Assembly (NCBI GenBank): GCA_902518965.1 | Contig: CABYIQ010000005.1 | Span: 43,041 to 107,040 of the forward strand | Direction: 5' to 3' | Origin: an uncultured SAR116 cluster alpha proteobacterium | GTDB lineage: Bacteria > Pseudomonadota > Alphaproteobacteria > Puniceispirillales > Puniceispirillaceae | DNA: 64,000 nt | In this document: in pieces, positions 1,685 to 64,000 of the stretch | Layout of the letters: every line of letters begins with the position of its first letter | How positions within the stretch are numbered: the stretch's first letter is position 1 | The notes under the pieces: model-generated | Told to the model about the DNA's origin: nothing | Seen by the model: only the letters and a program-made list of their open reading frames with translations | Database searches by the model: none | Program-made: the position numbers and the translations under genes

Positions 1685-3157
1685 CTACTGCTTTAGATAG
1701 GCATCCAGTTCATTTGTCATATGTTCATCAAAATACAAACCCAGCTTTGTGCGACGGAACAATAAATCCTCTGCAGTACGCGCCCACTCATGATTAACTA
1801 AATAATCAATTTCAGCTTGATAAAGGCCATTTCCAAAATCACGACCAAGCTGGTGCGGCTTGTCGGCAGTGCCAATGATTTTGTATACCCGGCTGCCATA
1901 GGCCGCAGCCATCCGTGCCAGCACTTTTGTCGGCAAGTCAGGAAATTTTTGTGCCAATTCAGCATTAAAAGTTTCAATGTCAGTAGTCTCCAAATTGCCA
2001 CCAGGTAAATGGCGTCCATTTGCTTGCGAAGGATGTGGCGCGGGCAAAACTGCGTCAATCATTGCCGCAACAGCCAATGATAATTTTCTATACGTCGTCA
2101 GCTTTCCACCAAATATATTCAGCCAACTTTGTGCAGACCCCTGTTGCCATTCCAGCACATAATCTCTGGTCACAGACTGAGCCTCTTGTTGTCCGTCATC
2201 ATATAACGGGCGCACACCGGAATAAGTTGACACAATATCAGACTTCGCAAGTGGCCGCTCCATATATCGGCTAAGTTGTGTGCAAATATATTCAATTTCT
2301 TGCTTACTTATCTGCGGGCTATCTGGTGATTCCGGATGGTCTACATCCGTAGTACCAACAAGCGTAAAATCATCCAAATAGGGAATGGCAAATAAAACCC
2401 GACCATCTGAATTCTGAAATATATAAGCCTTATCATGCTCAAAAAGTTTTCTTGTAATCAGATGTGAGCCTCTGACCAATCTTACTCGTTTCACATTCTG
2501 TGGCATCGGATAAAGAGCACATACCTGGTCTGCCCAAGGGCCGCTGGCATTTATAACTAGTTTCGCTTTTACTGGCCCAGTGGTGGTCTGAGCTACCCAG
2601 CCACTTTTGTATTGGTCTAACTTTGTCACCTCACAGTCACGACGAATGTCAGCACCAAACGCTGCCGCCGCAACTGCATTTATAATGGTTAGCCTGCTGT
2701 CATCAACGAAGCAGTCTGAATACTCAAACCCGGTTACAAATTTCGCTTTCAGGCACTTTCCTGCACGGTCAGTTTTCAAACTCACAGCTCTTGATCCCGC
2801 CAGCCTGTTTCGTCCCCCTAGTTTGTCGTATATGAACAGACCCATGCGCAGCAGCCATTTTGGACGCATCCCTGGCAGATGAGGTAAGACGAAACGTAAC
2901 GGCTTTATCAGATGAGGCGCCATCCGCATCAGGACTTCTCGTTCCTTTAACGATTCTCTGATCAGTCTGAATTCATAACGCTCTAGATAACGCAAACCAC
3001 CATGAATCAGCTTTGTTGACCATGAGGAGGTAGCTGAGGCAATGTCGTTCTTTTCAGCAAGACATACTGAATAGCCCCTTGCTGCCAATTCATGGGCAAT
3101 GCCACAGCCATTAATGCCGCCACCAATGACCAGAATATCAAAACTATTATCGTTCAT
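1685..3157 (-). CDS. glpD: FAD-dependent glycerol-3-phosphate dehydrogenase
   Basis: This enzyme oxidises sn-glycerol 3-phosphate to dihydroxyacetone phosphate and passes electrons to the quinone pool at the inner face of the membrane. The 490-residue length is normal for bacterial GlpD. The FAD-binding Rossmann motif GGGINGCG is at about residues 12-19, followed by the family signature STKLIHGGLRYLE. A later FGGKLTTYRKL segment near residue 340 is also typical. The C-terminal alpha-helical domain is complete. It lies 29 bases downstream of a glycerophosphodiesterase on the same strand, which would supply its substrate from glycerophosphodiesters. No glycerol kinase or glycerol facilitator is present in the window. 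The membership is confident. Confidence 0.95.
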   Translation of the reverse strand: MNDNSFDILVIGGGINGCGIAHELAARGYSVCLAEKNDIASATSSWSTKLIHGGLRYLERYEFRLIRESLKEREVLMRMAPHLIKPLRFVLPHLPGMRPKWLLRMGLFIYDKLGGRNRLAGSRAVSLKTDRAGKCLKAKFVTGFEYSDCFVDDSRLTIINAVAAAAFGADIRRDCEVTKLDQYKSGWVAQTTTGPVKAKLVINASGPWADQVCALYPMPQNVKRVRLVRGSHLITRKLFEHDKAYIFQNSDGRVLFAIPYLDDFTLVGTTDVDHPESPDSPQISKQEIEYICTQLSRYMERPLAKSDIVSTYSGVRPLYDDGQQEAQSVTRDYVLEWQQGSAQSWLNIFGGKLTTYRKLSLAVAAMIDAVLPAPHPSQANGRHLPGGNLETTDIETFNAELAQKFPDLPTKVLARMAAAYGSRVYKIIGTADKPHQLGRDFGNGLYQAEIDYLVNHEWARTAEDLLFRRTKLGLYFDEHMTNELDAYLKQ

Positions 3158-3186
3158 TAGTAATAATCTTCCAGCTTAAGAAAGGT

Positions 3187-4125
3187 TTATCGCTCCCAAA
3201 GCCATCCTCTGTCAGATAACCGTCTTTGCACCCGACCGGGGTAGTCAGTGATGATTGCATCCACATGTAAATCAATCATTGCATCAATGTCATCTGGCTC
3301 ATTAACAGTCCAAACAGCCACGCACAGACCCAAATCTTTTGCCCGCATAAGATCAGCCTTCGAAATATCTTTAAAATGAGGGCACCACAACTCTCCACCA
3401 GCCTTCTTTACTTCATCAGGCAAAGATATATCTGGAGGCCTCAAGTCGGGTGTTGAGTGAAGCGAAGTTTCTTCTCCAATGTCTTCAGCATGCTGTTTCA
3501 GTTGAGTTAAATATGAAGTCGGCATATCTGCAACTTGTTTTTTACATTCAGCGAGCAGCGTCCAGTCAAAACTGTGAAGCAATGTCCGATCCTCCATGCC
3601 AGCCTTTTTAATTTCACAGGTAACAACCGAGACCAACTTCTCTTTTGCCGTTCTATCGGCTGAGAATTCAGGGTCAGACTTAAGCTCAAGCATCATACAG
3701 ACACGTTGATGTTTTGGCTGAGACACTAATTCCAAAAGCTCGGACAACTTAGGGACGCGCACACCATCTAACTGGGCTTGTTCGCAAAATCTGCGTCCAT
3801 AATCTGTATGGCCATTCAGACGACCTATATCAAAACACTCTATGTCTTCAAAATAAAGAGAGGCTACCCTCGCCCCTGCTCCGTTGATAAAGCGGCCATC
3901 TGGACCACGGGTAGCGGCACCATTTAATTCATGGTTATGAGTGATTACAGGGACATCATCTCGTGTCAAAAGCACATCAAATTCAAGAAGGTCAACACCA
4001 ATTGAGAGCGCGAAATCAAACCCGATTATGCTGTTTTCAGGCAAAATACCTCTTGCACCACGATGACCAACAATACGGATAGTATTTGCATCGCCTCTAA
4101 ATGACTCTACTTGTGTAAATTTCAT
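3187..4125 (-). CDS. Glycerophosphodiester phosphodiesterase
   Basis: This 312-residue protein belongs to the GDPD (UgpQ/GlpQ) family, which hydrolyses glycerophosphodiesters to glycerol 3-phosphate and an alcohol. The catalytic HRGARG motif is at residues 21-26 with PENS just after it. The metal-binding L-x-E-F-D-V segment and VITHNH follow, and AVWTVNEP and IITDYPG mark the end of the TIM barrel. No signal peptide is visible, so it is probably cytoplasmic. Its ATG overlaps the stop of the upstream Gfo/Idh/MocA gene by four bases, and glpD follows downstream, so the trio looks co-transcribed. The pairing with GlpD implies that a glycerol-linked head group is broken down here. The polar partner is not revealed. 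Confidence 0.92.
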   Translation of the reverse strand: MKFTQVESFRGDANTIRIVGHRGARGILPENSIIGFDFALSIGVDLLEFDVLLTRDDVPVITHNHELNGAATRGPDGRFINGAGARVASLYFEDIECFDIGRLNGHTDYGRRFCEQAQLDGVRVPKLSELLELVSQPKHQRVCMMLELKSDPEFSADRTAKEKLVSVVTCEIKKAGMEDRTLLHSFDWTLLAECKKQVADMPTSYLTQLKQHAEDIGEETSLHSTPDLRPPDISLPDEVKKAGGELWCPHFKDISKADLMRAKDLGLCVAVWTVNEPDDIDAMIDLHVDAIITDYPGRVQRRLSDRGWLWER

Positions 4126-5216
4126 TGCAATGCCAAACGAACTGCCTGTCCGGTCTGCGCAGACTCCTGTGCGGCCATTCCCATCCTAACGGCCCATATC
4201 CCATCAGAAAGGCCAACCTCAACCTGACCTGTGCCACGGACGACATCTAAAAACCGCTGATGCTGGTGAAAGGTTGAACCATTATGATCGCCTGCATCTA
4301 GGATCGTCTTGTCAATCGGGCACTTTATTTGCACCGGTCTGCACACTCCACGCGGACTTTCGATGATCATTGGCACCGGGCGCTTTTCTGCATCACCAGA
4401 CCAGAACCGGGCTGGGCCGGGAAGCTTAACTTCCAGTTTGCCAGAAGGGCCAACCGCGTGGATCATTTCCTGAAATTCAGACCCCTCTGCAAACATGGAC
4501 AACTCCAACATCGCCCGAGAACCATTGGCAAAGTCAACCAGCACATAACCACAGTCCCAGATATCAGCTCGTCGACCATTATAGATTTCATCAAGATGGT
4601 TTACTTCTTGACCAGCACTAGCCATAACCTGTACCGGATCACTTCGCAGGATGAATCGCATCAAATCAAAAAAATGACAGCATTTCTCAACGAATGTTCC
4701 GCCTGAATTTTCATTAAACCGGTTCCAGTTATTGACTTTTTCCAAAAAAGGAAAGCGATGTTCTGTGATGGTCAGCATTTTGATATCGCCCGTTACTCCC
4801 TCCAGTGTATTGATGAACTGCTGCATAGGCGGCATATAGCGATATTCCATTGCAACCCAGATTGGTGCCTTGTAGACAGAGCCCACAGCTTGGGCCCTTG
4901 CCAGATCATCTTCGGCCGTAAACAGAGGCTTTTCAACCAAAATGGGAAGGGTTACCTTCTCACTGATTGCCTCTAATTGTTCAATATGACAATGGTTCGG
5001 ACTAGCAATTACCAAACAGTCCAGCTGCTGATAATCAAGAAGTTCATCAACAGAATTTACAAAAAAAGCATCCGGTGCTAGCTCAGCAGCAGCCTGTGCC
5101 ATGTTAGGATCCGGCTCATAAATGGCGGCTACCATTGTGCCTTGCAATAAGTTGATATTGCGCAGATGTTCGCGCCCCATCATGCCACACCCAATTATAC
5201 CGTAATTTATCGTCAT
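4122..5216 (-). CDS. Gfo/Idh/MocA family NAD(P)-dependent enzyme
   Basis: This 364-residue protein has an N-terminal Rossmann domain with the GIIGCGMMG loop at residues 6-14. The family E-K-P motif sits at about residues 95-97 and a C-terminal alpha/beta domain contains GGTFVEKCCHFFD, whose K and H are candidate catalytic residues. The superfamily includes sugar and inositol dehydrogenases and also NAD-dependent glycosidases (GH109 and GH188). The ATG at 5216 is preferred to the GTG at 5219 because an AGGA motif stands six bases upstream of the ATG. It is coupled to the glycerophosphodiesterase by a four-base overlap and follows a GntR regulator. A glycosidase role in a sulfo-sugar pathway is a hypothesis; a simple sugar or polyol dehydrogenase is equally compatible. 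Confidence 0.85.
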   Translation of the reverse strand: MTINYGIIGCGMMGREHLRNINLLQGTMVAAIYEPDPNMAQAAAELAPDAFFVNSVDELLDYQQLDCLVIASPNHCHIEQLEAISEKVTLPILVEKPLFTAEDDLARAQAVGSVYKAPIWVAMEYRYMPPMQQFINTLEGVTGDIKMLTITEHRFPFLEKVNNWNRFNENSGGTFVEKCCHFFDLMRFILRSDPVQVMASAGQEVNHLDEIYNGRRADIWDCGYVLVDFANGSRAMLELSMFAEGSEFQEMIHAVGPSGKLEVKLPGPARFWSGDAEKRPVPMIIESPRGVCRPVQIKCPIDKTILDAGDHNGSTFHQHQRFLDVVRGTGQVEVGLSDGIWAVRMGMAAQESAQTGQAVRLALQ

Positions 5217-5225
5217 CACTGTTCC

Positions 5226-5966
5226 TTATTTGAGCCGTGAAACATAACGTGCGGCATCAGCATCATACCAAGTACGGGAATATTCAACTTTTTTATTCTC
5301 TTCTGACCAGCCAAATCTCTCAATAAAACCACATCGAATACCGGGTGCTATGGCTAGCAATCCGTCAGCCCATTGCGGGACTTCCGACAGACCAACCCAA
5401 TCTTCGACGCGGACAATCCAGACATCCAGACGCTCTTTATAATATTTATAGAGTGACTGCGAGACCTGTGCCTCGTTCACTTTAGCCGCGCTGTGCTGAT
5501 CTAGCCAGATTTCTTCTGCAGCGACAGGTAGACCATCAAGTAAGCGTTGCCGCCGAAATCTGTGTGCAAAAGAAGAGCCCCCAAAATCAGGCAGGCCTTT
5601 TGGTTTTTTCAGGCTGTCTACACGCACCAAATTTGCTGAGGGCAGACCACCACCTTGTGGTCTTTCAAGCCGAAAAAAAGAATAAATAGAATCTGCATTT
5701 TCATTCTTCTGGATATAATTTCCTGAACCTTGTTTGCGGGCCAAAAGGCCAGTTTCAGTAAGGCGGGCCAGTGATTTGCGTAAGGTGCGGACAGTTACAT
5801 TGTAATCTTTTGCCATTTGCCGTTCGGCAGGCAAGCGCTGACCCTCAGCAAGGAGTCCTGCACTTATTTCTCGGGACAGCTGTTCAGCAATTTGCAGATA
5901 AACAGGCAGTTTCCCTGAATTGTCATTTCTATCACTACCTCTGTTCATCCTAAATTGATACACCAT
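5226..5966 (-). CDS. GntR-family regulator with UTRA ligand domain (HutC type)
   Basis: The protein has a GntR winged helix-turn-helix at about residues 18-85 (with PAERQMAKDYNVTVRTLRKS) and a UTRA ligand-binding domain from about 105 to the end. HutC-type members usually repress a neighbouring catabolic operon until the substrate or its phosphate binds. It lies divergent to the monooxygenase-TRAP operon and 9 bases upstream of the Gfo/Idh/MocA gene, so it probably controls both directions. The start is uncertain: ATGs at 5966 and 5948 are in frame and neither has a good ribosome binding site. The 5966 start codon overlaps the predicted -35 of the opposite promoter. Confidence 0.9.
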   Translation of the reverse strand: MVYQFRMNRGSDRNDNSGKLPVYLQIAEQLSREISAGLLAEGQRLPAERQMAKDYNVTVRTLRKSLARLTETGLLARKQGSGNYIQKNENADSIYSFFRLERPQGGGLPSANLVRVDSLKKPKGLPDFGGSSFAHRFRRQRLLDGLPVAAEEIWLDQHSAAKVNEAQVSQSLYKYYKERLDVWIVRVEDWVGLSEVPQWADGLLAIAPGIRCGFIERFGWSEENKKVEYSRTWYDADAARYVSRLK

Positions 5967-5993
5967 TGATTTACGTCTGGCTATAGCTATAAT
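5966..5993 (+). promoter_or_regulatory. Sigma70-like promoter with overlapping palindrome
   Basis: A -35 box TTGATT (5966-5971) and a -10 box TATAAT (5988-5993) are separated by 16 bases and point toward the flavin monooxygenase gene. The palindrome TATAGCTATA (5982-5991) overlaps the -10 box. That is a good position for a repressor operator, with the adjacent GntR protein as the obvious candidate. A GGAGG ribosome binding site follows at about 6005, before the ATG at 6018. Confidence 0.55.
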
Positions 5994-6017
5994 TAGAGGG
6001 ATGGGGAGGATATAAAG

Positions 6018-7175
6018 ATGACTATTGTGCCGATTACCAGCAACGGGCTGGACGCCGCTGAAGTTAGTTTTTTTTCGGCACTTTGTTCAGATGATTATCA
6101 GTATCTTGGCGTCCCAGAAGGTCATTTAAGATCCAGCTGGTCACATTGTTCTGAAATTGTGAAAACATCAGAAAGAAACGGATTTCGCAACATACTCTGC
6201 CCGTCATCTTACCAGGTTGGTCAGGACACATTGTCCTTTGTTGCTGGTTGCGCACCTGTTACTGAAAAAATCAACTTACTGGCTGCTATACGCTGTGGTG
6301 AGATGCAGCCCATCATGCTGGCGCGAACTGTAGCGACACTTGATCATATGCTGGAAGGCCGGCTCACCATAAATATCATCAGCTCTGATTTTCCAGGGCA
6401 GGTTGAAGACAGCGCCTATCGCTATCAAAGATCACGTGAGGTTGTTGAAATTCTGCGTCAGGCCTGGACTCAGGACGAGATAAACTATCAGGGCAAAATT
6501 TATAATTTTAAAGGCGTGCCAACTGACCCTGCACGTCCTTATCAACAAAACGGAGGACCTTTATTGTATTTCGGGGGCTATTCACCCGCAGCTGTAGATT
6601 TATGCGCCCAACATTGTGATGTGTATCTAATGTGGCCAGAGCGCAGAGAAGAGCTAGAGGGCCGTATGAGAACTGTCCATAAACAAGCAGCTAGCTATGG
6701 TCGCACTCTAGATTATGGTTTGCGCGTCCACATGATTGTGCGCAAAACAGAAGCAGAGGCGCGCGAATATGCAGATGAGCTTGTCTCAAAACTTGATGAG
6801 GACAAAGGTAGGGCGATCAGAGAACGTGCGCTTGATTCAACATCTTTGGGCGTAGCCCGTCAGGCCAGAAATCGTGATCTTGCTGATATGGAGGGGTTTA
6901 TTGAGCCACATTTATGGACAGGGGTTGGACGGGCTAGATCAGGCTGCGGTGCAGCTCTTGTAGGCTCTGCTGATCAAATTCTGTCGGAAATTGAGGCCTA
7001 TCAGAAAATGGGAATGCGGTCCTTTATCTTCTCAGGCTACCCGCATTTGGACGAATGTGATTATATCGGCAAATTAGTATTACCAGAACTCAAGACTTGT
7101 TCACTTCCGCATGAATATGGACGTGTGCCAAACCAGCTGCCAGCCACGCCACTTGGGCATGGAGAAAGACGATAA
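6018..7175 (+). CDS. SsuD-type FMNH2-dependent monooxygenase (LLM family)
   Basis: This 385-residue luciferase-like monooxygenase closely matches the alkanesulfonate monooxygenase (SsuD) type, which uses reduced FMN and O2 to cleave a carbon-sulfur bond and release sulfite plus an aldehyde. The SsuD active-site elements are recognisable: Arg236-x-His238 in GLRVHMIV, Arg307 in TGVGRARSG, and Tyr341 in FSGYPHLDE. A strong GGAGG ribosome binding site precedes the start. It is the first gene of an operon with an aldo/keto reductase, a flavin reductase (the expected reduced-flavin supplier) and a TRAP transporter. The combination of monooxygenase, flavin reductase and aldo/keto reductase matches the SmoC-SmoA-SmoB set of the sulfoquinovose monooxygenase pathway. 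The sulfonate substrate itself is an inference. Confidence 0.88.
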   Translation: MTIVPITSNGLDAAEVSFFSALCSDDYQYLGVPEGHLRSSWSHCSEIVKTSERNGFRNILCPSSYQVGQDTLSFVAGCAPVTEKINLLAAIRCGEMQPIMLARTVATLDHMLEGRLTINIISSDFPGQVEDSAYRYQRSREVVEILRQAWTQDEINYQGKIYNFKGVPTDPARPYQQNGGPLLYFGGYSPAAVDLCAQHCDVYLMWPERREELEGRMRTVHKQAASYGRTLDYGLRVHMIVRKTEAEAREYADELVSKLDEDKGRAIRERALDSTSLGVARQARNRDLADMEGFIEPHLWTGVGRARSGCGAALVGSADQILSEIEAYQKMGMRSFIFSGYPHLDECDYIGKLVLPELKTCSLPHEYGRVPNQLPATPLGHGERR

Positions 7176-8068
7176 TGGAAAAAATTGCGCTCAATGAAAC
7201 ACTGTCTCTGTCTCGTTTAATCTATGGCATGTGGCGTCTTGGTGATGACAACGACACCTCACCTGCCCATATTCAGGCAAAAATTGAAGCCTGTCTTGCG
7301 CAAGGGATAACCACCATGGATCAGGCAGATATCTATGGGGGATATCAGGCAGAGGAAATTTTTGGCCATGCTCTTCTGGCTGCACCACATCTGCGCGAAC
7401 AAGTTGAGATTGTCACCAAATGCGATATTGTGGCGCCAGCAGGACGATACAGTGCAGCACGTCTGAAATATTATGACACCAGCGCTGCTCATATCCGCCA
7501 GTCCGTCGAAGACAGCTTGCGCCTGATGCGCATAGAAACGATTGATCTTTTGCTGATACACAGGCCTGACCCGTTTATGAACCACCATGAAACAGGTTCT
7601 ATTCTTGATCAGTTGATCAGTTCTGGAAAAGTGAAAGCTGTCGGCGTATCAAACTTTAAACCGCATGACTGGACTCTGCTGCAATCTGCTATGGAGAATC
7701 AACTTGTCACCAATCAAATTGAAATATCTGTTCTGGCCAATCAGGCTTTCATAAACGGCGATATTGCTTTTTTGCAGGAACGGGGCATCCCACCAATGGC
7801 CTGGTCACCTCTTGCTGGCGGGATGTTATTTTCAGGGGACAACCCCAACTTGATAGCCACGCTTCAGGCAAAAGCAGATGACGCTGGTGTCGATATCGGA
7901 GCAGTTGCTGTTGGCTGGCTACTTGCGCATCCAGCAAAAATTCTGCCCGTTCTGGGCACGAATAATCTTGAGCGAATCAGTCATATTTCTGATGCACTTA
8001 AATTAGACATGGACCGTACAGACTGGTTTGAAATCTATGAATCTGCAAATGGAACAGAAGTACCGTGA
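7175..8068 (+). CDS. Aldo/keto reductase (YdhF-like)
   Basis: This 297-residue NADPH-dependent oxidoreductase has a (beta/alpha)8 barrel of the aldo/keto reductase superfamily. The catalytic tetrad is visible as Asp49, Tyr54, Lys82 and His129 (motifs DQADIYGG, TKCDI and LIHRPD). The sequence closely resembles E. coli YdhF, including the N-terminal YGMWRL and the WSPLAGG loop. Its start overlaps the stop of the monooxygenase in a TAATG junction. If the monooxygenase releases an aldehyde, this enzyme is the natural candidate to reduce it to the alcohol or sugar. Family membership is certain; the substrate is not. Confidence 0.93.
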   Translation: MEKIALNETLSLSRLIYGMWRLGDDNDTSPAHIQAKIEACLAQGITTMDQADIYGGYQAEEIFGHALLAAPHLREQVEIVTKCDIVAPAGRYSAARLKYYDTSAAHIRQSVEDSLRLMRIETIDLLLIHRPDPFMNHHETGSILDQLISSGKVKAVGVSNFKPHDWTLLQSAMENQLVTNQIEISVLANQAFINGDIAFLQERGIPPMAWSPLAGGMLFSGDNPNLIATLQAKADDAGVDIGAVAVGWLLAHPAKILPVLGTNNLERISHISDALKLDMDRTDWFEIYESANGTEVP

Positions 8069-8598
8069 AAACAGATATGCAGCATGATGTTAGCAAATTC
8101 AATCCAACCAAGGATCGAATGGCAGACTACCGCCGAGCTTTAGGAAATTTTCCAACAGGTGTTACGATCATCACATGCATGAGCCAGAGTGGGCCACTCG
8201 GCATAACCGTGAATAGCTTCACTAGCGTATCGCTAAAGCCACCACTGATAATGTGGTGTCTGAACAAGAAGTCAACGCGGTTCAGTTCTTTTATGGATGC
8301 AGAGAACTTCGCTGTGCATGTGATGCCAGCAAGCTCAAAAAATTTATGTGTCTCTTTTGCACAATCCGCACGAGCTTTCGAACATACCGACTGGTCATTA
8401 AGTGTACAGAAAGTACCGCTTTTGAAAGGGAGTTTAGCTTGCTTTGAATGCAGACAGTTCGCAGATTATGACGGTGGTGACCATTCTATTTTACTGGGAC
8501 TAGTGGATTTAGTGTCCACGTCCAGTGGTGTCCCCCTGACATTTGCGCAAGGACGCTTCATTGACCCAGACCTAGAGCCACATAACGATATATTATGA
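8065..8598 (+). CDS. Flavin reductase family protein (FMN reductase component)
   Basis: This 177-residue protein has the flavin reductase-like domain that binds FMN and NAD(P)H. The N-terminal RRALGNFPTGVTIIT motif and the NSFTSVSLKPPL segment are diagnostic. Such proteins supply reduced flavin to two-component monooxygenases, so it is the expected partner of the SsuD-type enzyme two genes upstream. The GTG start at 8065 overlaps the previous TGA; an ATG at 8077 is an alternative that loses four residues. The stop overlaps the next start (ATGA). The tight coupling with both the reductase and the transporter supports a single pathway. Confidence 0.92.
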   Translation: MKTDMQHDVSKFNPTKDRMADYRRALGNFPTGVTIITCMSQSGPLGITVNSFTSVSLKPPLIMWCLNKKSTRFSSFMDAENFAVHVMPASSKNLCVSFAQSARAFEHTDWSLSVQKVPLLKGSLACFECRQFADYDGGDHSILLGLVDLVSTSSGVPLTFAQGRFIDPDLEPHNDIL

Positions 8599-9185
8599 TA
8601 AATCTTCTTTTGATAATTAACAAACCAATTGAACGAGCCAATGACCTAGCAGGGTATATTGGCCGAAACCTCTCCATTTTTGCAATGGGCTTGATGGTGG
8701 TGGTCATTCTGACACAAGTCTATTTTCGATATGTTTTGAACAGCGCTCTTCCATGGCCTGACGAGGCTGCACGCTTTTTAATGCTATGGCTGGCAGGTTT
8801 AATGGGACCAATCGCCCTAAGACAGGGAAGCATGGTGGCAATACTTGGTGTTCAGTCCTTACTTCCAGGCCTTATATGTAAAGTTTTGATATTCGGTCTG
8901 CTTCTCGTTTCATTTGCCGTCCTAATAGTCGCCGTTAAATTAGGTTGGGCACATGTAAATTCCGGCTGGCTCTTTGCAAGTTCATCGCTAAAGGTGCCAT
9001 TAAACTTAATTGGCATGAAGGCCATAAAGATGAAACTAGCCTGGTCATACATGTCTTTATTTGTTGGGTTTTGCCTAATGTCACTTGTAAACCTTGAGCT
9101 GTTGCTGCGCACAGCCATAAGCATATTTGGAGGTGAGTCTCAGCTTAAACCAATAAATAACACTAAAGAGATGAAGGTGGAGTAA
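8595..9185 (+). CDS. dctQ: TRAP transporter small permease (DctQ type)
   Basis: This 196-residue inner-membrane protein has four predicted transmembrane helices, at about residues 25-48, 60-85, 95-120 and 140-165. The family motif FRYVLNSALPWPDEAARFL follows the first helix. It forms the Q subunit of a sodium-dependent tripartite carrier together with the DctM and DctP proteins encoded next. The ATG overlaps the flavin reductase stop and the gene runs into dctM through a TAATG junction. Its location inside a catabolic operon points to uptake of the organic anion that the upstream enzymes oxidise. Confidence 0.92.
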   Translation: MINLLLIINKPIERANDLAGYIGRNLSIFAMGLMVVVILTQVYFRYVLNSALPWPDEAARFLMLWLAGLMGPIALRQGSMVAILGVQSLLPGLICKVLIFGLLLVSFAVLIVAVKLGWAHVNSGWLFASSSLKVPLNLIGMKAIKMKLAWSYMSLFVGFCLMSLVNLELLLRTAISIFGGESQLKPINNTKEMKVE

Positions 9186-10474
9186 TGCTGATTTGGTTCT
9201 TGCCAATCTTTTTAGTTCTCCTCCTTGTGGGCTTGCCGGTTTTTTTTGCGTTGTTAGCAGCACCTGGCCTGATGCTGTGGATGAATGGACAAGAACGTGA
9301 CATCACCCTCCTTTATCGAAATGTCTATAATGGAATAGACAGCTTCCCCCTCATGGCAATACCATTTTTCATGTTAGCCGGTGAGTTGATGAACCGGGGG
9401 GGCATCACAGCACGCCTTGTCGAATTTGCGCAGGCTATGATGGGGCATCTGCGTGGTGGTCTAGCTCACGTAAATATTCTTTCGTCTATTTTGTTTGCAG
9501 GTTTATCAGGTTCAGCTGTTGCCGATACTTCTGCATTAGGATCCATGCTTGTTCCCGCCATGGTTAAGCAGGGTTACAGCCGCCGGTTTGCTGCTGCCGT
9601 GACCGCTGCCAGTTCAGTGATAGGGCCAATAATTCCCCCGTCAGGCATAATGATTATTTATGCCTATGTTATGGGTGAGAGCGTTGCAGCGTTATTTCTC
9701 GCCGGCATTGCCCCAGGTATTCTTGTTGGAATTGGCTTAATGTTGATGGTCAAATTCATGGCGAACCTCAAAGACTTTCCTCCCGCGAGTAAGCGTTATA
9801 GCTGGTCAGAACGAGGCGATGCATCTTTGAAGGCTTTTTTTCCTTTAATGACACCAGTTATCATACTAGGTGGCATATTATTGGGAATCTTTACACCAAC
9901 TGAGGCTGCCGCAGTGGCCGTTGGCTATGCAATATTCATTGGCTTCTTTGTTATGCGCACGTTAAGGGTCAGAGATTTGCCTGATGTTCTAAATAGGGCA
10001 GCTATGACATCAGCAATTGTTCTTCTTTTAGTTGGTGCTGCGATGGCGTTCAAAACTGTTGTTAGTTTGAGTCATGCTCCAGAACATCTTGCAAGTGCAA
10101 TCCTATCAATTTCAGAAAACCCCCTCATTCTGCTATTCTTAATAAATGTACTTCTTTTTGTTGTAGGGATGTTTTTGGATGCAGGTCCGGCCATCATTAT
10201 ACTAGGTCCAGTCCTGGGCCCAATTTTTCTGGATCTCGGCATCCATCCTGTTCATTTCGCGATTATAATGAGTGTTAATCTTACTGTTGGATTAGCCACC
10301 CCACCGATGGGGCTTGTGCTTTTTGTGGCGTCATCCGTTTCAGGAGAGCGCGTGGAAGAAATCACTCGTGCGATATTACCTTTTCTCTTGGTTGAAATTA
10401 TTGTGATCTTTCTGATTACCTTTTTTCCAGCCATTTCCATGACAATTCCTAGATTGACAGGATTTGTCTCATAG
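9185..10474 (+). CDS. dctM: TRAP transporter large permease (DctM type)
   Basis: This 429-residue protein is the M subunit, the sodium-coupled transport core, of the TRAP system, with about 12 hydrophobic segments. Family signatures include the N-terminal GLPVFFALLAAPG, the first GLSGSAVADTSALGSMLVPAM repeat half with SSVIGPIIPPSG, and the second repeat with VNLTVGLATPPMG. The ATG overlaps the preceding stop, and an AAGGTGGAG ribosome binding site sits just upstream. Together with DctQ and DctP it makes a complete three-gene TRAP set. Confidence 0.95.
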   Translation: MLIWFLPIFLVLLLVGLPVFFALLAAPGLMLWMNGQERDITLLYRNVYNGIDSFPLMAIPFFMLAGELMNRGGITARLVEFAQAMMGHLRGGLAHVNILSSILFAGLSGSAVADTSALGSMLVPAMVKQGYSRRFAAAVTAASSVIGPIIPPSGIMIIYAYVMGESVAALFLAGIAPGILVGIGLMLMVKFMANLKDFPPASKRYSWSERGDASLKAFFPLMTPVIILGGILLGIFTPTEAAAVAVGYAIFIGFFVMRTLRVRDLPDVLNRAAMTSAIVLLLVGAAMAFKTVVSLSHAPEHLASAILSISENPLILLFLINVLLFVVGMFLDAGPAIIILGPVLGPIFLDLGIHPVHFAIIMSVNLTVGLATPPMGLVLFVASSVSGERVEEITRAILPFLLVEIIVIFLITFFPAISMTIPRLTGFVS

Positions 10475-10505
10475 CGTCTTCTGTATTAACCAAAGGGAGG
10501 AAAAT

Positions 10506-11561
10506 ATGAAGAAGATATTGAAACCACTAGTAATGGGAGTCATTATGGCCCTCACTACTGTAGCCGTTCAGGCAGCGGACTATACAATCCGTGCAACCGC
10601 GAACTCAAATGAAAATGATGAAGATTACGACGGCCTTGTTGTTTTCAAGAACTATGTTGAGAGTGCATCCAACGGGGCGATAGCTGTAGAACTCTTTATC
10701 GGAACACAGCTCTGCTCAAAAGGCGCTGAATGCTTGCAAGGCGTCGCTGATGGCTCAATTGATGTTTATATTTCCACGTCCGGAGGTGCAGCAGGAATTT
10801 TCCCATATGTTCAGATTCTCGACGTGCCTTATTTAATGTCAGATGATCGTATTGCCGAGCATGTGCTTTCCGGTGATTTCACCAGAAAACTCCGCGCGAT
10901 GGCACTAAAAGATTCAGGCAACAAAATCAGATTGATGACAGTCGGCAATACAGGTGGTTGGAGAAACTTTGCGAACACGAAGCGCAGAGTGCAGAACCCA
11001 GGCGATATGTCAGGGCTAAAAATCAGAACAGTCGTTGCTGACCTTCCACAGGAATTGGTAAGAGCTCTTGGCGCATCACCTACACCTATCCCTTGGCCAG
11101 AATTGTTCACAAGCTTTCAAACTGGCGTTGTTGAAGGCTCAAAGAACGGCATCACAGATATTATGGGGATGAAATTTCCAGATGCCGGCCTGAAATACGT
11201 AACACTTGATGGCCACGCTTATATGGGTGCACTTTGGTGGATGAACAATGACAAATTCATGTCTATGCCAGAAGGTTTAAGAACAGTTGTGGCAGATGGC
11301 TTTTACCAGCTTCAACAAGCGACATTTGCGTCACCTAAGCGTAAATCTATTCAGGCCTATGCTGATTTCGTAGCTGGTGGCGGTGACCTTTATGTACCCA
11401 CACCTGCTGAAAAAGCTGCATTCAAAAAAGCAGCTGCTCCTGTTTATGACTGGTTCAAGTCAAATGTTGATGGCGGTGAAGAAGTATTCAATGCCTTCAC
11501 TGCTGCAGTCAATAAGGCGGAAGCAGACGTTGGCGGCGGTCGAAGCAAAGATATAAACTAA
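10506..11561 (+). CDS. dctP: TRAP transporter periplasmic solute-binding protein (DctP type)
   Basis: This 351-residue periplasmic protein delivers substrate to the DctQM permease. The start at 10506 is chosen because a strong GGGAGG ribosome binding site stands six bases upstream and a clean signal peptide of about 22 residues (ending VAVQA) follows. An upstream in-frame codon at 10464 would overlap dctM and has no such support. The mid-protein segment with NTGGWRNFANTKR and MSGLKIRTV contains the conserved arginine region that grips the substrate carboxylate or other acid in DctP proteins. The ligand is unknown. A hairpin terminator follows the stop codon. Confidence 0.93.
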   Translation: MKKILKPLVMGVIMALTTVAVQAADYTIRATANSNENDEDYDGLVVFKNYVESASNGAIAVELFIGTQLCSKGAECLQGVADGSIDVYISTSGGAAGIFPYVQILDVPYLMSDDRIAEHVLSGDFTRKLRAMALKDSGNKIRLMTVGNTGGWRNFANTKRRVQNPGDMSGLKIRTVVADLPQELVRALGASPTPIPWPELFTSFQTGVVEGSKNGITDIMGMKFPDAGLKYVTLDGHAYMGALWWMNNDKFMSMPEGLRTVVADGFYQLQQATFASPKRKSIQAYADFVAGGGDLYVPTPAEKAAFKKAAAPVYDWFKSNVDGGEEVFNAFTAAVNKAEADVGGGRSKDIN

Positions 11562-11576
11562 ACTTGCTCAATTTAT

Positions 11577-11607
11577 ACTCTGAGCCTTTGGCGTTAAGGC
11601 TCAGAGT
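11577..11607. terminator. Hairpin terminator after the TRAP operon
   Basis: A perfect 10-bp inverted repeat (ACTCTGAGCC/GGCTCAGAGT) with an 11-base loop lies 16 bases after the dctP stop and before the stop of the converging Sel1 gene. There is no immediate T-tract (a run of T occurs about 20 bases later on the plus strand), so it may act in both directions with modest efficiency. Confidence 0.6.
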
Positions 11608-11642
11608 TACCTTCAATTTAAAATATATTTTTTGCCGTCATG

Positions 11643-12134
11643 TTATCTAAACGGATAAAGCCAAACACGATAATCATCGATCATATCTTCCGCTTGTTTG
11701 ATTTGGTCAACAGTCATTTTCTTAACAACTTCTTCTTGGCTGATCGCAGCATCAGGATCACCACCAATGGCAGACAGAACGTACCACATATAAGCGCGTA
11801 CCAAATCCGGCGCAGGCATGCCCAAGCCAAGTTCATAATACCAACCAACACCAGATTGTGCACCGGGATGACCTTTCAGCGCAGAGCGCAAATACCAGTC
11901 AAAAGCTCTCTGATAGTCCTGCCTAACACCAAGCCCCATGGCATACATAACGCCTATCAATTCTTCTGCATCTGCATTGCCAGAACGGGCTGCTGGCCAC
12001 AATTCTTTATAAGCCGCTTCAAATTCATTTGCTTCCATCAAATCACGCGCATGCTCAATCTCTGCTCTTACAATCGTAGATGCGCTCAGGAACCAAAAAA
12101 GCAAGAGAAAAAAAACAACACTCTGCCTTCGCAT
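11643..12134 (-). CDS. Secreted Sel1-repeat protein
   Basis: This 163-residue protein starts with a signal peptide (two arginines, then a run of F and L, ending near VRA at residue 24). It continues with Sel1-like tetratricopeptide repeats. Repeat motifs include ADAEELIGVMYAMGLGV, GAQSGVGWYYELGLGM and YMWYVLSAIGG. Sel1 repeats form alpha/alpha solenoids used for protein-protein contact, here presumably in the periplasm. The 5' end overlaps or abuts the start region of the divergent dihaem peroxidase gene. It shares the AYMW and QI-x-EA C-terminal pattern with the Sel1 protein at 40487-41101, so the two may be paralogues. No specific function can be assigned. Confidence 0.85.
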   Translation of the reverse strand: MRRQSVVFFLLLFWFLSASTIVRAEIEHARDLMEANEFEAAYKELWPAARSGNADAEELIGVMYAMGLGVRQDYQRAFDWYLRSALKGHPGAQSGVGWYYELGLGMPAPDLVRAYMWYVLSAIGGDPDAAISQEEVVKKMTVDQIKQAEDMIDDYRVWLYPFR

Positions 12135-13457
12135 ATTTACCTCATTTTAATTGTACTTTGCACAGTAACAATTCACACAAAAGTCCTTGCAGATAGCCTT
12201 CCAAGGCAGCTTACGCAATCAGATTACCATGAATTTTCAAAAGAGCGGGCAGAAATTGGGCAATTCCTTTTTTATGATAAAATCCTTTCCGGCAACAGAA
12301 ATATTTCTTGCGGAACTTGTCATCACCCACGATTTGGCGGTGCAGACGGGCTATCATTAGGCATCGGGGAAGGCGGAATTGGTGTAGGTCCTGACCGCGT
12401 GCCCGGAAGTGGTGATGATAAAATAAAGAAACGAATTCCACGTAACGCGACAGCATTATGGAACTTGGCCGCAAAAGATTTTCAAGTTTTATTCCATGAT
12501 GGACGACTTTCGTTGAGTGATGATTACGATAATCGTTTCAACAGTCCTGCAGAGGAGTGGCTTCCAGAAGGGTTGGAAACCGTTCTCGGCACTCAGGCAA
12601 TATTTCCAATGACTGCTCAGTTTGAAATGGCAGGCAACCCCAAGGAAAATGAGGTCGCAGGCGCGCTGCATGACCGTATAGACTATGTTTGGCCTATTCT
12701 TGCAAAGAGAGTCCGCACGATACCCGAGTATGGAAAAATGTTTGTCGAGGTGTTCGACAATATTGATAAGGCTGAGGATGTAACCATTGCTGAAATAGGT
12801 GAGGCTTTAGCTGCATATATAGCTCTGGATTTTGAATCCCGAGATTCGAATTTTGATAAATATTTAGCTGGTCATACATCAGCATTAAATGCAGAGCAAA
12901 AAAGGGGTATGGATCTTTTCTATGGGAAAGCTGCTTGTTCAAGCTGCCATTCAGGCCCTTTACTTACAGATCAAAAATTCCATGCCCTAGCCCTACCACC
13001 TTTTGGCCCAGGGCGCACCCGCCGGTTTGACCCTTATGTGAGGGATGTTGGCCGTATGGCTGAAACAGACAGGATTGAAGATTCCTATCGATTTCGCACA
13101 CCTTCTCTACGTAATGTGGCTTTAACGGCTCCCTACGGACATAACGGTGCATTTCCGGATTTGGATGGAATCATAAGGCATCACCTCAATCCGTCAGAAT
13201 CTCTAAAAGAATGGAAACGAGAATGGGCAAAACTGCCACTAATTCCCTGGCTTGCAGAAATTGATTTTTTGGTGTGGGATGACAGATTTGAAATGGAGAG
13301 ATTTAGAAACAAAATTGATATTCAGCCCATTGCTTTGTCTGATGACGAGATCGCAGATCTTGTATCATTCATGCATGCGTTGACAGGCCAAACAGCTCAA
13401 AAACTCAGATTTGGCATTCCTAAACGCGTCCCTTCAGGGCTGCCAATTGATAAGTAA
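12051..13457 (+). CDS. Dihaem cytochrome c peroxidase / MauG-family protein, start uncertain
   Basis: The protein has two c-type haem motifs, CGTCHH and CSSCHS, spaced by about 210 residues, as in bacterial cytochrome c peroxidases and MauG-like enzymes. A signal sequence (YLILIVLCTVTIHTKVLA) directs it to the periplasm. Other family segments are FHDGRLSLSD, MTAQFEMAGNP and FRTPSLRNVALTAPYGHNG. The start is problematic. The nearest in-frame ATG is at 12051, giving a 29-residue lead before the hydrophobic core and an 84-base antisense overlap with the Sel1 gene. No GTG or TTG occurs between it and the signal peptide. A non-standard start (CTG 12123 or ATT 12135/12144) is possible. Function in peroxide reduction or cofactor maturation is inferred from the family. 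Confidence 0.82.
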   Translation: MLNLCSYNRRCAQEPKKQEKKNNTLPSHIYLILIVLCTVTIHTKVLADSLPRQLTQSDYHEFSKERAEIGQFLFYDKILSGNRNISCGTCHHPRFGGADGLSLGIGEGGIGVGPDRVPGSGDDKIKKRIPRNATALWNLAAKDFQVLFHDGRLSLSDDYDNRFNSPAEEWLPEGLETVLGTQAIFPMTAQFEMAGNPKENEVAGALHDRIDYVWPILAKRVRTIPEYGKMFVEVFDNIDKAEDVTIAEIGEALAAYIALDFESRDSNFDKYLAGHTSALNAEQKRGMDLFYGKAACSSCHSGPLLTDQKFHALALPPFGPGRTRRFDPYVRDVGRMAETDRIEDSYRFRTPSLRNVALTAPYGHNGAFPDLDGIIRHHLNPSESLKEWKREWAKLPLIPWLAEIDFLVWDDRFEMERFRNKIDIQPIALSDDEIADLVSFMHALTGQTAQKLRFGIPKRVPSGLPIDK

Positions 13458-13644
13458 AATCCTGTTTGGATTGCAAATCCTGATCAAATTTCTCCTCACC
13501 TAAAAATAGTTTAATCCTCATTTCAACTTAGACGCTACTGGGCCACTAAAAACAGGTCCATCACTTTTACGCCCATAAATCCCCAGAAAACACAGGATTA
13601 TTGAGCATTAAAACTGATAAAAGGTAACCTGTAAAAGAAAAGTA

Positions 13645-13734
13645 TGGCGGAGGGAGGGGGATTCGAACCCCCGAGGGGCTTGCACCCCAACACGCTTTCC
13701 AGGCGTGCGCCTTAAACCGCTCGGCCATCCCTCC
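13645..13734 (-). tRNA. tRNA-Ser (anticodon GGA)
   Basis: The reverse complement gives a class II tRNA with acceptor stem GGAGGGA/TCCCTCC, discriminator G and encoded CCA. The anticodon arm CACGC-CTGGAAA-GCGTG gives anticodon GGA for serine UCC/UCU codons. It has a long variable arm and the T-loop GGTTCGAATCC. Total length is 90 bases including CCA. Confidence 0.97.
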
Positions 13735-63480: not shown

Positions 63481-64000
63481 ATGGATATCGTTGCGGATAT
63501 TGGTGGAACAAATGCACGGTTTGCCTGTTACACAGCTGATCCATCAAGACAGAGTGCGGGAAAGCTATTTAATTCGGCACGCTATATCTGCGCTGATTTT
63601 CCCAGCATGGCAGATGCGCTGACGAGCTATTTTGAGGACTTTCAAATCAAGCCGAAGCGCATGTCACTTGCTGTTGCGGGTCCTGTTGATGGACCAAGCG
63701 TAAATTTCACAAACAACCACTGGTCTTTTTTAAAACGTGAAGTAAAATCGAGATTTAGCCTGTCATCTCTGACTGTTGTAAATGATTTCACTGCACAAGC
63801 CCTTGTACCTCCTTACCTTGCGAAGAAAAAACTGATATCTGTGCGAGATGGAACACCTTACTCTGACACGCCTATTCTTGTCTTAGGCGCGGGAACAGGA
63901 CTTGGTTTTGCTGCACTCATGCCCGTAGCAGATGACTGGCGGCCTCTGGAAACAGAAGGTGGGAACGCTCTTTTGTCTCTGCAGGCAGATGACCCGGAAA
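63481..64000 (+). CDS. glk: Glucokinase, 3' partial at the window edge
   Basis: The frame continues past the right edge. The visible 173 residues start MDIVADIGGTNARF, the ATP phosphate motif of bacterial glucokinase. They continue through VAGPVDG, NDFTAQ and GAGTGLGFA, all typical. The enzyme phosphorylates glucose to glucose 6-phosphate. The ATG at 63481 is chosen over the adjacent ATG at 63478 because AGGA lies six bases before it. The glucose-binding HAEGGN-type motif appears as ETEGGNALL just before the edge. Confidence 0.92.
   Translation, partial: MDIVADIGGTNARFACYTADPSRQSAGKLFNSARYICADFPSMADALTSYFEDFQIKPKRMSLAVAGPVDGPSVNFTNNHWSFLKREVKSRFSLSSLTVVNDFTAQALVPPYLAKKKLISVRDGTPYSDTPILVLGAGTGLGFAALMPVADDWRPLETEGGNALLSLQADDPE

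Follow-up and report, generated by a model that had tools for sequence, protein, structure and literature searches.

A probable sulfoquinovose operon with a predicted TRAP importer

The 64,000-nucleotide stretch analysed here (the window) is part of contig CABYIQ010000005.1, from an uncultured SAR116 cluster alphaproteobacterium, and carries two divergent gene arms that very probably serve the use of the plant sulfosugar sulfoquinovose (SQ). A GH188-type sulfoquinovosidase (SqgA) and a set of SmoC-, SmoB- and SmoA-type enzymes would desulfonate sulfoquinovosyl glycerol (SQGro) imported by the adjoining DctQMP TRAP transporter. An original prediction, made from the letters of the sequence, had proposed such a sulfoquinovose monooxygenase (sulfo-SMO) pathway with a GH188 opening step, TRAP uptake and SQGro as a likely substrate, to be given up if the monooxygenase clustered with non-sulfonate enzymes or if the Gfo/Idh/MocA protein had no GH188 active-site residues and fell among plain sugar dehydrogenases. 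Neither was found to be so, and the reading is now stronger than when it was made because the transporter follows SQ genes into other pathways.

The arms meet at 5967-6017. The minus arm comprises genes for a GntR regulator, the Gfo/Idh/MocA protein SqgA, a glycerophosphodiester phosphodiesterase (GDPD) and GlpD; the plus arm encodes the monooxygenase, an aldo/keto reductase, a flavin reductase, DctQ, DctM and DctP. The central features are as follows.

4122-5219, minus strand: SqgA, predicted GH188-type NAD-dependent sulfoquinovosidase (bit scores to 8zn9 and 8qc2/8qc3; ligand residues)
5226-5966, minus strand: GntR/UTRA regulator (PF00392 and PF07702)
5953-5973, plus strand: predicted GntR operator, direct repeat ATTGAT-n5-ATTGAT, core ATTGATnCACnATTGAT (conservation upstream of SmoC)
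6018-7175, plus strand: SmoC-type FMNH2-dependent monooxygenase, predicted to act on SQ (bit scores to 7olf/7oh2; tree)
7175-8068, plus strand: SmoB-type aldo/keto reductase, predicted to convert 6-oxo-glucose to glucose (bit scores to 7bby/7bbz)
8065-8598, plus strand: SmoA-type flavin reductase (PF01613, 117 bits)
8595-9185, plus strand: DctQ, TRAP small permease (PF04290)
9185-10474, plus strand: DctM, TRAP large permease (PF06808; TIGR00786, 439 bits, cut-off 268)
10506-11561, plus strand: DctP, predicted sulfoquinovoside-binding TRAP protein

Every gene named in the original prediction is present, with those for GDPD and GlpD lying outside the interval 4122-11561 that it gave for the locus. 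The translational coupling that it described holds from SmoC to DctM, where consecutive genes overlap by 1, 4, 4 and 1 bases (the flavin reductase and SmoB genes sharing 4), but does not extend to DctP, separated from DctM by 31 bases. DctP, DctQ and DctM domains are all encoded in one operon. A domain scan of the ten proteins encoded between 1685 and 11561 found the TRAP parts and no ABC transporter part; tblastn of the window with seven ABC references of three types gave no match, and the binding protein and ABC genes of the SmoEFGH type are not found beside the enzymes. The source genome (1.94 Mb, 70 contigs) is 76% complete, and gene absences there mean little.

The predicted enzymes

Against 7olf and 7oh2, which we take to be SmoC, the monooxygenase gives 676 and 674 bits; against SsuD/MsuD it gives 194. 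In a 23-row tree it groups with the first two chains, and 100/100 support separates it from the SsuD and MsuD rows, one of each. The four residues named in the original prediction (Arg236, His238, Arg307 and Tyr341) are all present and are invariant in a six-row alignment. A protein assigned by name to a SAR116 cluster bacterium matches the monooxygenase at 94%. The aldo/keto reductase scores 430 bits against 7bby/7bbz, presumably SmoB, compared with 213 bits for the next match. The best NCBIfam model for the flavin reductase, FerA, gives 162 bits, under its cut-off of 260. The ISME J 2026 survey PMC13372026 takes SmoC and SmoB homologues together as the mark of sulfo-SMO, and here their genes are adjacent.

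SqgA scores 487 bits against 8zn9 and 368 and 367 bits against 8qc2 and 8qc3, the GH188 enzymes of PMC10755693; the next match, an inositol dehydrogenase, is at 67 bits. A tree places it with the solved GH188 enzymes and apart from two other Gfo/Idh proteins with 100/100 support, as had been anticipated. With the numbering and list of SQ contacts given in PMC10755693, eight of eight ligand residues of ArSqgA are retained (K97, Y126, R155, L159, K161, E178, H182 and H312), and PMC11465081 agrees on the three sulfonate contacts. A ninth printed position, E163, was left unscored as it is valine in the ArSqgA row itself; the glutamate adjoining it corresponds to E153 in SqgA and is conserved throughout the 14 SqgA rows compared. 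Judged by sequence, the locus holds a sulfo-SMO gene set and a GH188 enzyme.

The scheme that we favour builds on gene content, gene order, residues, phylogenetic placement and comparative linkage, each observed directly, while every substrate and reaction assigned to this organism is a prediction. In the periplasm DctP would capture SQGro, or else free SQ, for DctQM to carry inward. SqgA, taken as cytoplasmic because its start lacks signal-peptide-like character, would with NAD+ yield SQ and glycerol. SmoC, using reduced flavin supplied by SmoA, would oxidise SQ at C6 to give 6-oxo-glucose and sulfite, and SmoB would reduce 6-oxo-glucose to glucose. Regulation of both arms would fall to GntR, acting at the ATTGAT direct repeat that lies between them. 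Sulfite would probably be exported by one TauE-type protein encoded in the genome. The original prediction had remarked on the lack of a sulfite exporter; in the window tblastn indeed found no exporter of the PF03601 type, but six TauE-family matches occur elsewhere in the genome. One PF00174 match (a possible sulfite oxidase) and a gene for GlpK are also present in the genome, and the window has a partial glucokinase match at 63487-63984, which spans positions 1-164 of the 314 in the model.

Transporter choice at SmoC loci

A scan of a genome collection with a SmoC alignment supplied the best 80 of at least 576 relatives, to which 28 loci from the order of the window were added; removal of five duplicates left 103 non-redundant SmoC loci. 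Within that order SmoC occurs in 29 of 136 genomes, the source genome included, and in 13 of the 43 good ones. The transporter beside SmoC is this TRAP type, lying downstream, at 50 of the 103 loci (a frequency beyond chance expectation), an alpha-glucoside-type ABC system at 16, a SmoF-type ABC system at eight and another ABC system at five, with none present or the locus cut off at 24. No locus among the 103 has both the TRAP transporter and any of the three ABC types. Of the 28 loci added from the order of the window, eight have the TRAP transporter, recognized by a DctP orthologue. SqgA is encoded at 96 of the 103 loci, and at every one of the 47 TRAP loci that have 1 kb or more of upstream sequence.

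The 16 SmoC-SmoB clusters (L010 and 15 others) in which an alpha-glucoside-type ABC system replaces TRAP come from SAR116-like, Planktomarina and other genomes and present an alternative importer; GH188 is found in 15. At another locus, a minimal version on a plasmid of Qingshengfaniella alkalisoli (L150), GntR, SmoC and TRAP genes occur with no SmoB, SmoA or GH188 among the annotated neighbours.

The DctP family and its tie to sulfoquinovose

DctP matches proteins named SAR116 or Puniceispirillaceae at 93-98%. An AlphaFold2 model confirms the TRAP fold. R153 and R174 align with arginine in five PDB rows and are invariant, as are Cys70 and Cys76, the arginines in 34 DctP rows; we take them to be the conserved TRAP positions that bind the acid group of the ligand. 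The isethionate-binding TRAP protein IseP (8t9t), in which these positions align, combines the same fold with a sulfonate ligand, but shares 25% identity with DctP and binds a C2 sulfonate rather than a sulfosugar.

Does the transporter family follow SQ genes in general, or SmoC alone? At E 1e-40 DctP has matches in 13 records of a plasmid collection, and SmoC lies 2.1-3.6 kb away in all ten matches of at least 68% identity. A class-wide search for SmoC found it in nine of 387 genomes, a set too thin for a test of context, so one family of 296 genomes centred on G413 was used; it is taken as Rhodobacterales from a coordinate match to plasmids of Qingshengfaniella, Roseicitreum and Pacificitalea. 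With orthologues defined by at least 66% identity (the next matches are at 49, 47 and 36%), DctP is found in 109 of these genomes and SmoC in 124; 81 have both, within 8 kb of each other in 79.

The strongest test is provided by the 28 genomes with DctP and no SmoC. SqgA, the SQ marker adopted for these loci, is encoded beside the TRAP transporter in 23, of which 20 have a full set of kinase, DeoC/LacD-type aldolase and isomerase; if SmoA or SmoB alone is also accepted the count rises to 26 of 28. One such locus (L194) and 19 similar ones are sulfoglycolysis-like clusters with GH188 and the same TRAP, often with DeoR and a mutarotase.

More distant relatives extend the pattern. Photobacterium sp. 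DA100 (L146, 264-10936) offers a second, unrelated context, in which genes for a DctP homologue of 40-44% identity and its DctQM come after the other genes of a cluster of sulfo-EMP (sulfoglycolytic Embden-Meyerhof-Parnas) type. The SQ isomerase of this cluster is of YihS type, with 701-704 bits against 7ag4 and 2afa, and its sulfolactaldehyde 3-reductase exceeds the cut-off of 348 with 509 bits. Also encoded are a class II aldolase, a PfkB kinase, a mutarotase, a TauE protein and a DeoR regulator. SqgA adjoins a 47% homologue (L223) as well. In a 42-row tree, in which branches are long and the deep joins unsure, the DctP proteins of SMO loci, Photobacterium and Pacificitalea lie apart from five solved TRAP proteins, as does a 36% Paracoccus homologue, which has no SQ context and falls outside that group. 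The comparisons point to a TRAP family tied to SQ whatever the downstream pathway, and good comparative support exists for a family dedicated to sulfoquinovosides that would feed this GH188-opened sulfo-SMO operon.

Several observations weigh the other way. ABC transporters serve at other SmoC loci, TRAP being one option among several, and 43 of the 124 SmoC genomes have no DctP orthologue. Five of the 28 loci lacking SmoC lack SqgA also: two rest on SmoB (L207 and L214), one on a SmoA-like reductase alone (L219), and two (L216 and L218) have only a PhyH dioxygenase; a sugar-ABC ATPase is near some of the 28 (L199, L200, L206 and L208). The Pacificitalea DctP (45-49%) and two 36% homologues have no SQ gene nearby. 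The co-occurrence counts take no account of shared ancestry, and the two tests overlap in part, since by their coordinates three or more of the plasmid records correspond to genomes among the 296. The DctP model is moderate (pLDDT 77.5, below 50 for residues 207-223) and weak in the ligand region. The molecule names in the PDB are those of methanesulfonate/alkanesulfonate enzymes for 7olf/7oh2 and of aryl-alcohol enzymes for 7bby/7bbz. Finally, the operator-like repeat described below occurs at only seven of the 16 loci with the alpha-glucoside-type ABC system.

The PhyH-family dioxygenases beside the SQ TRAP transporter (L216, 7993-8757; L218, 2632-3378) are possibly SQ dioxygenases.

Alternative explanations

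Three other explanations were considered. The enzymes might constitute sulfo-SMO while the TRAP transporter imports an accompanying compound (a C2/C3 sulfonate or some organic acid), SQ itself being taken up by another transporter. We regard this as very unlikely. None of the 50 TRAP loci matches any of the three ABC types that flank SmoC elsewhere, nor do those references match in the window, and the transporter also accompanies SQ genes in two further gene sets, both sulfoglycolytic, whose sulfonate products differ from those of sulfo-SMO and make a shared C3-sulfonate substrate improbable. More remote still is the possibility that the locus scavenges small alkanesulfonates for sulfur by way of an SsuD-like monooxygenase, the Gfo/Idh/MocA protein being a plain dehydrogenase. 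Among NCBIfam models the monooxygenase does come closest to alkanesulfonate monooxygenase, at 246 bits and below the cut-off of 518, and the two nearest chains bear such molecule names. Yet its clade is separate from the SsuD/MsuD rows with 100/100 support, the aldo/keto reductase and a GH188-type glycosidase would have no evident role, and SqgA keeps all eight SQ-contact residues.

It is also unlikely, if clearly less so, that the transporter carries free SQ only, with SqgA serving a glycoside that enters another way. The Photobacterium cluster would suit such an arrangement, since it has the TRAP transporter, and the 27.9 kb examined gave no match to SqgA. Against this stand the presence of SqgA at 47 of 47 TRAP loci with upstream sequence, its apparently cytoplasmic location and the lack of a second transporter among the genes at 1685-11561.

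An operator-like repeat upstream of SmoC

The repeat between the GntR and SmoC genes, AATTGATACACCATTGATTTA at 5953-5973, did not feature in the original prediction. Its core, ATTGATnCACnATTGAT, is found with at most one mismatch no more than 260 bp upstream of SmoC at 89 of 102 loci, one locus with fewer than 260 bases upstream being left out of the count. The distribution by transporter is 49 of 49 for TRAP, eight of eight for SmoF-type ABC, five of five for the third ABC type, 20 of 24 where the transporter is absent or cut off, and seven of 16 for the alpha-glucoside type. There are no other matches to the core in 1.84 Mb of locus DNA, where 20 shuffled patterns gave no match at all; for the 21-base form with three mismatches, 0.04 matches are expected in the window. 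A search of the source genome for a wider regulon gave one perfect site, at this locus, and three sites with two mismatches as against one in a reversed control. The annotated start of GntR falls inside the repeat, and hence Met7, at 5948, is likely to be the true start.

A Sel1-repeat and di-haem pair downstream of DctP

Two genes on opposite strands follow directly after that for DctP, at 11643-13457, beyond the stretch considered in the original prediction.

11643-12134, minus strand: Sel1-repeat protein (PF08238; signal-peptide-like start judged by eye)
12051-13457, plus strand: MauG/CCP-like di-haem cytochrome, start uncertain (PF03150, 114 bits)

Among TRAP loci whose downstream sequence extends for 6.3 kb or more, 32 of 45 have the pair, against none of 39 non-TRAP loci; the DctP-Sel1-CCP module also occurs at 21 of the 28 DctP loci without SmoC. 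The di-haem protein belongs with MauG/CCP proteins, having two CXXCH haem motifs (CGTCHH and CSSCHS) in its CCP_MauG domain. It scores below the cut-offs of all three NCBIfam models for the named subfamilies, TTQ MauG, MbnH and His-Xaa-Ser system MauG-like (TIGR03981). The last of these is the nearest, at 277 bits with a cut-off of 340, but the partner here is a Sel1-repeat protein rather than a His-Xaa-Ser peptide.

Among the matches listed for the 296 genomes, 88 have the di-haem protein at 51% identity or above, and 85 of these also have a DctP orthologue, within 9 kb in 68 and apart in 17. In two of the three remaining genomes (G640 and G688) the di-haem gene is about 3 kb from that for SmoC. 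More distant di-haem paralogues are common. One of 46% identity, on plasmid pPGA1_262 of Phaeobacter inhibens (L149), lies beside a mutarotase-like gene and a xylose-type ABC transporter, with no SQ gene among 15 annotated features.

The pair is likely to be part of the uptake cassette and to have a periplasmic role. A bolder and rather unlikely reading is that DctQMP represents a dedicated sulfoquinovoside TRAP family which together with the pair forms a portable uptake cassette, attached by marine bacteria to different SQ pathways, and that the di-haem protein acts on a periplasmic partner, for example in the oxidative maturation of Sel1 or of DctP with its invariant Cys70 and Cys76. We know of no solute importer with such oxidative maturation.

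Neighbouring genes and comparison with close relatives

The remaining features bordering the operon are the following.

1685-3157, minus strand: GlpD, glycerol-3-phosphate dehydrogenase (NCBIfam PRK12266.1, 661 bits, cut-off 360)
3187-4125, minus strand: GDPD, glycerophosphodiester phosphodiesterase (PF03009, 108 bits; 4-base overlap with the adjoining gene)
13645-13734, minus strand: tRNA-Ser(gga) (ARAGORN), bordering a block that is missing in the same-genus genome G070

GDPD and GlpD had been proposed to process glycerol-linked products. For GDPD this finds no support, and its candidacy as a core SQ gene is rejected: it is near none of the 103 SmoC loci, and a block of GDPD, GlpD and aconitase-X (AcnX) genes is kept in two genomes of the same genus, G066 and G070, with no SmoC match. 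No sqgA match lies beside the block in G066. These genomes are 76% and 64% complete, respectively, so that absence of SmoC elsewhere in them is not proven. GlpD or GlpK is near nine of the 103 loci, too few to be called core. Both GDPD and GlpD look like lineage-specific neighbours, although GlpD could burn the glycerol released. In two of three loci fetched from genus g9 (L239 and L240) GDPD follows a sugar-ABC-type ATPase. The aconitase-X-like large and small subunits are encoded at 11-1635, convergent with GlpD, and reach 206 bits with a model for cis-3-hydroxyproline dehydratase, whose cut-off is 700.

Positions 4282-13643 of the window (9.4 kb), from inside sqgA to the end of the tRNA-Ser gene, are missing from G070 as one block (L237). 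The predicted SQ cassette, including the Sel1 and di-haem genes, is therefore present or absent as a unit in this comparison. G070 retains a remnant of sqgA, its final 52 codons, which points to loss; the absence may also be an assembly fault. Integration at the tRNA gene by way of repeats was considered and rejected, there being no shared word longer than seven bases within 60 bases of either block end.

Relation to known systems and implications

The sulfoquinovosidase of Agrobacterium tumefaciens is a GH31 enzyme. The sulfo-SMO (sulfo-ASMO) operons of A. tumefaciens and Novosphingobium (PMC12890257, PMC9594981) likewise combine enzymes of the SmoC, SmoB and SmoA classes. The window differs from these in having a TRAP transporter, not an SQGro ABC transporter, GH188 in place of the A. 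tumefaciens sulfoquinovosidase, and a GntR regulator with an operator-like repeat. The use of GH188 with sulfo-SMO is itself already reported for Roseobacters (PMC10755693), where clusters place it beside sulfo-SMO genes and the enzyme has the same residues as SqgA of the window; Mesorhizobium sp. SCN 65-20 appears both in a figure legend of that paper and in our locus set (L051). Its main text makes no mention of TRAP, transporter, cytochrome or SAR116, and its supplement may show transporter genes; TRAP does not occur in the main text of PMC13372026. Sulfo-EMP/EMP2 clusters are treated in PMC12890257; in our comparisons relatives of this TRAP accompany kinase, aldolase and isomerase genes, with Sel1/CCP too in the 296-genome family. 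The operon described here lacks such glycolytic genes, and cleavage of the C-S bond is predicted instead. The operon departs from the described sulfo-SMO type in its transporter and in the addition of the conserved di-haem/Sel1 module. In the open-licence papers searched, a body outside which fall supplements and the main SMO and Roseobacter SQ papers, no TRAP importer for SQ and no use of SQ by SAR116 came to light.

Production of SQ amounts to 10 billion tons a year (PMC10755693). If our interpretation is right, uptake in many marine users of SQ would depend on a TRAP family that goes unscored by surveys keyed to enzymes, such as PMC13372026. DctP would then be a marker across several SQ pathways, accompanied by a predicted operator, and the di-haem module would gain a metabolic context. 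Ruegeria sp. TM1040, with its DctP TM1040_RS02205, is a named strain that offers a direct test of TRAP uptake.

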